Made by a program: the position numbers and the translations under genes | Assembly: GCA_035528375.1 (NCBI GenBank) | Contig: DATKYS010000119.1 | Location: 1 to 7,898 of the forward strand | Direction of reading: 5' to 3' | DNA: 7,898 nt | From: a bacterium | Lineage (GTDB): Bacteria; RBG-13-66-14 | Notes under the pieces: model-generated | Databases searched by the model: none | What the model saw: the letters and a program-made list of their open reading frames with translations, nothing else | What the model was told of the DNA's origin: nothing | Shown: positions 2,536-7,852 of the stretch, piece by piece | Numbering within the stretch: position 1 is the first letter of the stretch | Layout: each line of letters opens with the position of its first letter

Positions 2536-3813
2536 TTGGACAAGTACGTGATTCACGGCGGGAAGCGGCTGGAGGGCGAAATCGCCGTCTCCGGCTCCAA
2601 GAACGCCTCACTGCCCATGTACCCCGCGGCCATCCTGGCGAGCGAGGGGAAGCTCGTCCTCACCAACATCCCCCGGCTGGACGACGTCTTCACCATGCTC
2701 GAGGTCCTGGGGGTCCTCGGCGTGAAGTCGGAGTGGACCGGCGAGCACGCGTTGTCGCTGGACGCCGCGGGCGCGTTGTCGGCGCTGGCGCCCTACGAGC
2801 TGGTGCGGAAGATGCGGGCCAGCGTGAACGTGCTGGGTCCGCTCCTGGCACGGCTGGGCGAGGCGAGGGTCTCGCTGCCCGGGGGGTGCGCCATCGGCAC
2901 CCGGCCGGTGGACCTGCACCTCAAGGGGCTGGCGGCGCTGGGCGCGGAGCTCGCCATCGAAAACGGCTACATAGTCGGGAAGGCGAAACGGCTCGCCGGT
3001 TGCAGGATCAACCTCTCCGGCGCGCACGGCCCGTCGCGGGGCGCCACGGCCAACGTGCTCATGGCCGCGGTGCTGGCGCGGGGGACGACGGTCATCGAGG
3101 GCGCCGCCCGGGAGCCGGAGACCTCCGACCTCTGCCGCCTGCTGGCGGCGATGGGGGCGAAAATTTCCGGCGTCGGCACCCCGACCCTGGAAATCGAGGG
3201 CGTGGATTCGCTCCACGGCTGCGAGTTCGCCGTGATGGGCGACATCATCGAGGCGGGGACGTACATGGTCGCGGCGGGGATAACGCGCTCGCGCTTCACT
3301 CTCGCCGGCTGCCCGCTGGAATCCATGACTCCCGTCGCGGAAAAGCTGGCGGAGGCCGGAGTGGAGTGCGCCGGTGAGGGCGGCCGGGTGGTGGTTGACG
3401 GGCGCGGCGGCAAGCGGCCCATCGAAATCCGCACCGGCCCCTGGCCCGAGTTCCCCACCGACATGCAGGCCCAGATGATGGCCCTGGCCACCCTCGCGCC
3501 GGGCATCAGCGTCTTCACCGAGACCATCTACCCCGACCGCTTCATGCACGTGCCGGAGCTGGTGCGCCTGGGCGCGACCATCAGCCGGGAGGGCGCCACG
3601 GCGGTGGTCCACGGCATGACGGCCCTGGCCGGGGCGCACGTGATGGCGACGGACCTGCGGGCGTCGGCGGCGCTTGTCCTGGCCGGGCTGGCCGCGAAGG
3701 GCGAGACCCACGTCCACCGCGTCTACCACCTGGACCGGGGCTACGAGGGGATGGAGAAAAAGCTCGCCGCCCTGGGCGCCGACGTCGCCCGGGTGCCCGA
3801 CGAGGACGCCTGA
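2536..3813 (+). CDS. murA: UDP-N-acetylglucosamine 1-carboxyvinyltransferase (MurA)
   Basis: MurA transfers enolpyruvate from PEP to UDP-GlcNAc, the first committed step of peptidoglycan synthesis, in the cytoplasm. The 425-aa product is full length for the family. Diagnostic residues are present: SGSKNAS with the catalytic Lys22-Asn23, the active-site loop PGGCAIGTRPVD with Cys118 (the equivalent of Cys115 in E. coli, the fosfomycin target), PTDMQAQ with Asp309, and the closing DLRASAALVLAGL and DRGYE motifs. The usual ENRFMH reads PDRFMH here. The start is TTG at 2536: an in-frame TAA ends at 2526, AAGGGGG (2525-2531) is a good binding site, and MDKYVIHGG matches the conserved N-terminus. 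The MBOAT gene begins 19 nt after the stop, so the two are probably co-transcribed. Confidence 0.97.
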   Translation: MDKYVIHGGKRLEGEIAVSGSKNASLPMYPAAILASEGKLVLTNIPRLDDVFTMLEVLGVLGVKSEWTGEHALSLDAAGALSALAPYELVRKMRASVNVLGPLLARLGEARVSLPGGCAIGTRPVDLHLKGLAALGAELAIENGYIVGKAKRLAGCRINLSGAHGPSRGATANVLMAAVLARGTTVIEGAAREPETSDLCRLLAAMGAKISGVGTPTLEIEGVDSLHGCEFAVMGDIIEAGTYMVAAGITRSRFTLAGCPLESMTPVAEKLAEAGVECAGEGGRVVVDGRGGKRPIEIRTGPWPEFPTDMQAQMMALATLAPGISVFTETIYPDRFMHVPELVRLGATISREGATAVVHGMTALAGAHVMATDLRASAALVLAGLAAKGETHVHRVYHLDRGYEGMEKKLAALGADVARVPDEDA

Positions 3814-6327: not shown

Positions 6328-6360
6328 GACGTAGGGACGGGTGTCCACACCCGCCCGTTT
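6328..6360 (+). repeat. Palindromic repeat, copy R4, possible terminator of the murA unit
   Basis: Positions 6328-6360 match 7781-7813 with a single mismatch over 33 nt. The hairpin pairs CGGGTGT (6338-6344) with ACACCCG (6347-6353). The GGG/CCC pairs outside it are interrupted by an A at 6337 where the other copy has G. A GTTT run follows the stem, so it could work as a weak terminator for transcripts leaving the SGNH-like gene. Confidence 0.75.
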
Positions 6361-6511: not shown

Positions 6512-6547
6512 GCGAGGCAAATTTACCGACGAAAGGGAGGTTAGTTG

Positions 6548-7687
6548 ATGAAAACTCTGCAAACGGTTCTGCTGCTGGTCCTCGCCGTGGGGGCCCTGGC
6601 GGCGGAAAAGACCGTCTTCCTCGAAGACTTCGACGCCTCGTGGTGAGGCTACTGCCCTCGGATGCGTGAAGCTTTCACGCATCTCCGCGAGGATTATACC
6701 GAGGATGACCTAACGGTGGTCTCCAACCACAGCGGCGACAGCTACGCCAACTCCTACACCAACTACCGCAATAGCTACTGCTACATTACCGGCGTCCCCA
6801 CCGCCCTGGTGGACTACATCTACAAGCAGGTCGGCACCTACTCCACCTGGCAGGACAACTACAACCACCTCAAGGCCTGGATAGACAGTCAGCTCACCAA
6901 GGAGTCCGAGGCCACCCTGGACCTCGACTGCTTCGCCATCGGCGACGACATCTATCTGGAGACCACGGTGAACCTGGAGCAGGACATCACCAACGAGTGG
7001 TGGGTGTGGATGCTCGTGTACCAGGAAATGTGGGACACGTACCCGCTGGTGGTCCGCGGCGGTGACTACACCCCGACGGTGCTCCAGATTGCCGGGGCCG
7101 GCGAGAGCGACAGCTACTGCTGGAGCTTCGACCCCACCGGCTGGGACACCGAACACCTGGTAGGCGTCTGCTTCCTGGAGAAGAACCACGGGGATAAAGA
7201 GATCGTGCAGTCCCTGATGCTCCACCTGGACCTGGAGAGCCTGCTCGATACCCACGAGCCCCTCGTGGAGGACATAGACCCCGAGGACGGCGAGGACGAC
7301 GTGGCGATTGACTCGACCATCGAGTTCACCCTGCGCGACGACTCGGGGATTGACCTGGACACGCTGAACTTCACCGTGACGGACGACACGCTTTCCAGCG
7401 GCCGGGCGCTCACCCCCGGCGGCCGCGCCCTCTCCGTCGGCTTCACCCGCACCGGTGAAATCTCCGGCGAGCTGGACATAGACGACTCCGACCCCCAGTC
7501 CGTGGTCTGCACCTTCACGCCGGACGACGAGTTCGGCTACGAGGCGACCATCACCTGCACCATCGCGGCGGGGCTGGAGGACGGCCTGGGCACCCCCACC
7601 AGCGAGGACTTCGTCTGGAGCTTCATCACCGAGGAGTGGGTCCAGGTTCTGGAGACTTCCTGGGGCGCCATCAAGGCCCAGTTCTAA
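6548..7687 (+). CDS. Secreted Omp28/thioredoxin-like selenoprotein with UGYC active site and C-terminal Ig-like domain
   Basis: Read with TGA 6644-6646 as selenocysteine, the gene encodes 379 aa. It has a Sec signal peptide (MKTLQTVLLLVLAVGALAA, about 1-19), then KTVFLEDFDASW-Sec33-GYCPRMREAF, which matches the WCxYCP active site of Omp28-like thioredoxin-fold proteins with Sec replacing the first Cys. GVPTALVD (about 82-89) supplies the cis-Pro84 loop of a thioredoxin fold. A beta-rich middle region follows, then an Ig-like Big_5-type domain (about 236-340), and the protein ends in SWGAIKAQF. The likely role is thiol/selenol redox chemistry outside the cytoplasm; the partner is unknown. Start: AAAGGGAGG (6532-6540), the strongest binding site in the window, lies 7 nt before ATG 6548. 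The alternative ATG at 6662 has no binding site, lies inside the hairpin and would drop the signal peptide and active site. A stop mutation in a decaying gene is the main alternative. A terminator follows. Confidence 0.75.
6644..6646 (+). other. In-frame UGA, proposed selenocysteine codon
   Basis: This TGA occupies the place of the first cysteine in a Cys-Gly-Tyr-Cys thioredoxin motif and is flanked by conserved Trp before and Gly-Tyr-Cys-Pro after. TGA is an ordinary stop elsewhere in the window (murA at 3811-3813, the phosphatase-like gene, the methyltransferase stub), so context-specific recoding is required and a genome-wide code change is not. Confidence 0.75.
6656..6692 (+). promoter_or_regulatory. 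Candidate bacterial SECIS element
   Basis: A perfect 10-bp stem pairs 6661-6670 with 6674-6683 around a GCU apical loop (6671-6673). It begins 14 nt after the UGA, and its loop lies 24 nt after it. CCTCG (6656-6660) can further pair with CGAGG (6688-6692), leaving a 4-nt bulge at 6684-6687. Bacterial SECIS hairpins lie directly 3' of UGA inside the coding region and carry G near the start of the apical loop, about 16-37 nt after the UGA; this fits. Codons in the stem (CGT, GAA, GCT) depart from the local preference for C/G endings, suggesting selection on the RNA. The family role is to bind SelB carrying Sec-tRNA. Confidence 0.72.
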
Positions 7688-7782: not shown

Positions 7783-7852
7783 CGTAGGGGCGGGTGTCCA
7801 CACCCGCCCGTTTTTCTAATGCCGCGGGCGACCGTGGACGGTCGCCCCTACG
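7783..7852. repeat. Composite palindromic repeat, copy R6
   Basis: Inverted ends CGTAGGGGC (7783-7791) and GCCCCTACG (7844-7852) enclose two hairpins. The first, 7788-7797/7800-7809 with a CC loop, is followed by G and five T residues and could terminate plus-strand transcription. The second, 7826-7835/7838-7847 with a GG loop, lies in a 30-nt stretch identical to part of R3. Between the hairpins is an AT-rich spacer (about 7811-7823). Confidence 0.85.

Follow-up and report, generated by a model that had tools for sequence, protein, structure and literature searches.

A putative exported, Omp28-related selenoprotein with a Sec-Gly-Tyr-Cys active site encoded by a Coatesbacteria genome

Does the single TGA that interrupts a long, otherwise open reading frame in a Coatesbacteria contig terminate translation, or is it decoded as selenocysteine (Sec)? 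The stretch of DNA analysed, referred to as the window, has a length of 7,898 nucleotides and represents the entire contig C119; the genome bin to which it belongs has a size of 2.63 Mb and a listed completeness of 100%. As detailed below, the frame at 6548–7687 is very probably a genuine selenoprotein gene, judging from comparative sequence data.

The reading frame and its genomic surroundings

The open frame on the plus strand contains its sole in-frame TGA at codon 33; with Sec at this position, the predicted product starts with MKTLQTVLLLVLAVGALAAEKTVFLEDFDASW-U-GYCPRM and ends with TSWGAIKAQF. Its layout, from the N- to the C-terminus, comprises a signal-peptide-like start, a thioredoxin/Omp28-like part, a Big_5 domain, and a short tail (Table 1). 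An earlier note on this DNA had placed a ribosome-binding site, an ATG, a signal peptide, and the TGA in one frame staying open to 7687, and re-reading of the coordinates reproduced all of these elements. The GVPTALVD motif likewise is present, its proline being invariant in the aligned family, and the proposed C-terminal Ig-like domain was recovered as a match to PF13205. The standard ORF begins at ATG 6662 and codes for 341 amino acids; it lacks the 38 N-terminal residues including both active-site positions, which is the loss the note had predicted for automated gene calling.

Table 1. Features of the selenoprotein locus and related tail loci
Feature	Position	Strand	Basis or remark
Ribosome-binding site AAAGGGAGG	6532–6540	+	7 nt upstream of ATG 6548; sequence
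Complete putative selenoprotein gene, 379 aa, U33, TAA stop at 7685–7687	6548–7687	+	Orthologs L045/L068, L046, L047
Predicted signal peptide MKTLQTVLLLVLAVGALAA	6548–6604	+	By-eye judgement; like leaders in aligned family members
In-frame TGA probably read as Sec, codon 33, position 1 of UGYC (W-U-G-Y-C-P)	6644–6646	+	Homolog comparison
Putative resolving Cys36 (TGC) of UGYC	6653–6655	+	Invariant in alignments A1/A2
bSECIS-type hairpin, 10–11 bp, loop GCU	6660–6684	+	TGA-to-loop distance 24 nt
Pro84 in G-V-P-T-A, expected cis-Pro of thioredoxin fold	6797–6799	+	Invariant in alignment A1; cis form presumed
Big_5 bacterial Ig-like domain PF13205, residues 234–361	7247–7630	+	E 3.1e-7, above gathering cut-off
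C-terminal tail WGAIKAQF	7661–7684	+	Recurs in exported proteins of these genomes that are otherwise unrelated
WGxIKA-tail loci L162–L179	G000 (window's genome), contigs C4, C27, C31, C38, C39, C48, C51, C62, C100, C115, C124, C130, C137		

Neighboring genes in the window code for a class II (D/K/N-type) aminoacyl-tRNA synthetase, a low-molecular-weight phosphatase, an MBOAT protein, an EPSP-synthase-type enzyme (probably murA), and a protein with a weak DUF1574 match. None of these window neighbors suggested a partner for the selenoprotein, the gene of which stands alone. Near-identical palindromic repeats (GTAGGGGCGGGTGTCCACACCCGCCCG) occur on both sides of the gene at 6331–6357 and 7784–7810, where none would be expected by chance, and a similar repeat is located upstream of the ortholog at locus L068; these palindromes are REP-like elements.

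Decoding of the in-frame TGA

The TGA is retained at the same codon in three orthologs, which share 84% (G002), 78% (G001), and 42% (G006) identity with the window protein; neither the frame nor the TGA is thus a product of chance. The closest of them belongs to the nearest named relative, Candidatus Coatesbacteria bacterium RBG_13_66_14 (MFAF01000048.1). Leaders like that of the window protein occur in the aligned family members; homologs with a late start and no signal peptide, which the earlier note had named as counter-evidence, are not what was observed. If the TGA were a true stop, either the gene would have decayed, or it would encode a short exported peptide ahead of an independent ORF from ATG 6662. 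An ordinary ORF from 6662 does exist, but it has neither a signal peptide nor an active site. Moreover, the sequence on either side of the TGA is conserved and the codon itself is kept across four Coatesbacteria genomes, and five of the six codons that differ between the window and G002 upstream of the TGA carry synonymous changes, so that this stretch looks coding. Termination at this codon is highly improbable also because the TGA falls on the same cysteine position throughout the family. Using a profile built from the N-terminal part, relatives were found in 70 of 290 genomes. Of the homologs whose loci were read out, 32 distinct ones have an active-site TGA, which in every case replaces the first Cys codon of CxxC and is the sole TGA of the matched stretch, and 21 further homologs have Cys at this position. 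Both kinds of homolog named in the earlier note as support, Cys-containing and TGA-containing, thus exist and align at the first Cys. Two of the Cys forms contain TGAs more than 200 codons downstream, which are probably their own ends.

A sequencing or assembly error of a TGC or TGT codon would have to have recurred in the orthologs of independent genomes and likewise in the 32 homologs, and its probability is negligible. Reassignment or readthrough of TGA as Trp, Gly, or another standard residue is compatible with the frame, which stays open whatever residue the codon encodes. It is scarcely credible, however, as the alternative residue of the homologs is Cys, and as the genome holds a full Sec system while TGA terminates murA (end at 3813) and the phosphatase gene (at 1631), both in the window, indicating that the codon is still a stop here; several genes with the WGxIKA tail described below also terminate in TGA. 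A true stop, an assembly error, and a reassigned TGA were therefore rejected on the combined evidence of the conserved TGA, the Cys homologs, the Sec system, and the TGA stops nearby.

The earlier note had tied its selenoprotein proposal to selA, selB, selC, and selD, all of which were located in the genome of the window. A profile search detected selB on contig C36 (647 amino acids; 291 bits, above the cut-off), directly followed by the tRNA-Sec gene selC with the anticodon UCA (75 bits); selA (375 bits) and selD (328 bits; L140, G000:C21:21228-22139) are in the same genome bin. Rfam tRNA-Sec matches at 40–48 bits were discounted as other tRNAs, since every control genome gives such scores. 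The selD gene has an in-frame TGA of its own (VRCSGUAGKL). SelD is known to occur in a Sec form, and selD likely represents a second selenoprotein gene of this genome.

In bacteria, bSECIS elements have been defined by a loop of 3–9 nt with a G within the first two loop positions, a distance of 16–37 nt from the TGA, and a minimum free energy of at most –7.5 kcal/mol (PMC13188914). The hairpin directly downstream of the window TGA conforms to these rules in a simple scan (loop GCU, 24 nt, –14.7 kcal/mol) and is more stable than expected from dinucleotide shuffles (p 0.005). Among four orthologs, few sequences as these are, four of the ten pairs show paired changes on both arms, compared to none or one when the partner was slid. 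The best rule-conforming hairpins of 27 TGA genes average –7.3 kcal/mol vs –1.8 kcal/mol for shuffles; for nine Cys genes the mean is –2.2 kcal/mol, against –1.8 kcal/mol for shuffles. In the simple scan, –7.5 kcal/mol was reached by 10 of the 27 TGA homologs; little or no hairpin was detected in the TGA genes L062, L145, and L146, and the Cys gene L155 has a good one.

We propose that the UGA at 6644–6646 is decoded as Sec by SelB and tRNA-Sec, and that the hairpin would direct this decoding. The signal peptide, predicted to be cleaved, would mediate export, and the exported protein would fold into a thioredoxin/Omp28-type domain, its active site being Sec-Gly-Tyr-Cys, with the Ig-like domain and the tail C-terminal to it. 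Outside the cytoplasm, the UGYC pair may serve in selenol/thiol-disulfide exchange; the window protein is probably an exported selenol/thiol-disulfide oxidoreductase of periplasmic or surface location.

Distribution and exchange of Sec and Cys forms

UxxC/CxxC and Pro84 are invariant in the aligned members (alignment A1). On a maximum-likelihood tree of the family, at least eight Sec/Cys changes were counted, at least three of which are forced by well-supported branches. A sister gene within the same genus (L142, at G000:C38:4083-4814; L144, L145, L146) has TGC in the window's genome and in G003, and TGA in G001 and G002, and its Sec and Cys orthologs share 81.5–86.7% protein identity. Going by these sequences, the TGA/TGC difference is a recent Sec/Cys exchange. 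With such close swaps between sister orthologs of a single genus, the benefit of Sec to an exported oxidoreductase can be compared in a natural setting.

Genomes with the TGA form, 31 in number, nearly all have selA, which scored over the cut-off in 30 of them; the remaining one (G001) has a tRNA-Sec along with a selA fragment located at a contig end. In the 22 family genomes without a TGA form, selA was over the cut-off in 11 and not in the other 11, one of which (G005) is only 70% complete. The association is significant in Fisher's test (p 8e-5), which ignores relatedness, with the TGA position read directly at part of the loci and not in every genome of the count. G001 aside, the absence of TGA forms from genomes without selA agrees with the expectation that a TGA form does not occur where selA is missing.

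Tandem family genes, both containing TGA, are present at G011:C90:3926-5568 and G013:C1:362036-363669; with the motifs WUGYCP and PUGYCH / PUSYCH, they appear as adjoining selenoprotein genes. In one family member (L160, G007:C18:50294-50980), the first active-site Cys/Sec is replaced by Gly (AVWGPHCP).

Relation to known families and a C-terminal tail

The best NCBIfam match of the window protein is NF045500, 'Omp28-related selenoprotein', with 39.8 bits compared to a cut-off of 200 and residues 17–150 aligned. The accession is entered as 'Hypothetical protein GOS_C' with the motif UxxC in Table 1 of a 2026 review (PMC13188914), and the 2008 GOS paper gives 74 Sec and 312 Cys sequences for GOS_C, which it describes as a selenoprotein with a Trx fold and UxxC (PMC2398784); NF045500 apparently corresponds to the GOS_C of 2008. 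The supposition that Omp28-like selenoproteins had not been described therefore fails. Among the papers searched, none paired Omp28 with selenoprotein, or Coatesbacteria with selenocysteine, which carries little weight since papers use the name GOS_C. The proposal of a secreted, thioredoxin/Omp28-like selenoprotein stands as far as the selenoprotein nature, the likeness to Omp28, and the predicted export are concerned, all supported by sequence, and falls as to the novelty of its kind.

Whether the window protein is simply an ordinary NF045500 member with nothing new about it deserves consideration, as this model is its best NCBIfam match, is matched by all 14 aligned members, and shares the Omp28/thioredoxin-like domain with UxxC. 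We consider this rather unlikely, because the score is far below the cut-off, which no match in the 290 genomes reaches, and because Big_5 and the WGxIKA tail follow the matched part. On the same two counts, the score and the unreached cut-off, the window protein was not filed as an NF045500 member and is, as its sequence suggests, a divergent new branch beside the known Omp28-related selenoproteins. The exported Omp28-type selenoproteins thus would gain a branch missed by the current annotation model. Many of the 290 genomes carry clear TGA forms, all scoring below the existing NF045500 cut-off, so public annotation probably truncates such genes at the active site.

NF033782 is matched by 14 of 14 members (window protein 37.5 vs cut-off 150) and PF11551 by 8 of 14 (best E 7e-9), the window protein giving no PF11551 match at E<=1; this Omp28 family is named for outer membrane lipoproteins. 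The score for thioredoxin (PF00085), 21.3 bits, is just under the cut-off of 23.5. A structure model computed from two sequences had a pLDDT of 29 and was not used. The best PDB match, limited to the N-terminal part, is 2axo (Atu2684; E 1.6e-7), which we take to be a DUF1223 protein. DUF1223 (PF06764) is matched by 10 of the 14 members, but the window protein itself gave no match to this profile.

A further profile match (E 6e-6) was to PDB 5y1a, the Porphyromonas protein HBP35. HBP35 is described as exported and as containing a thioredoxin motif, and its C-terminal domain has been proposed to attach it to the surface (PMC2907840); this domain is of the Por-secretion type (PMC3120885). Like HBP35, the window protein has a thioredoxin-type motif and an extra C-terminal domain, and it is predicted to be exported; HBP35 differs in its Por-secretion-type domain, in hemin binding, and in having no reported Sec. 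By analogy, HBP35 may be regarded as the best functional counterpart of the window protein.

In the window's genome, 17 sites match the C-terminal pattern W-G-x-I-K-A-x(1-5)-stop, compared to 0 in a reversed control. All seven genomes of this Coatesbacteria family contain about 16–24 matches each, and 91 other genomes 0–5 each. The fuller pattern is [TS]xWGxIKA x(1-5) stop, with the window copy at 7661–7687. Its bearers are otherwise mostly unrelated proteins, most of them beginning with a signal peptide or a leader resembling that of lipoproteins, and the tail is a candidate tag for sorting or anchoring. More speculatively, and unlikely on present evidence, an undescribed sorting system of this Coatesbacteria family could recognise WGxIKA and display the window protein at the cell surface as a selenoenzyme, within a multi-gene set trading Sec and Cys; if true, selenium chemistry would be placed outside the cell. 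In the related family f3, the tail position is occupied by LGRVKALF(N).
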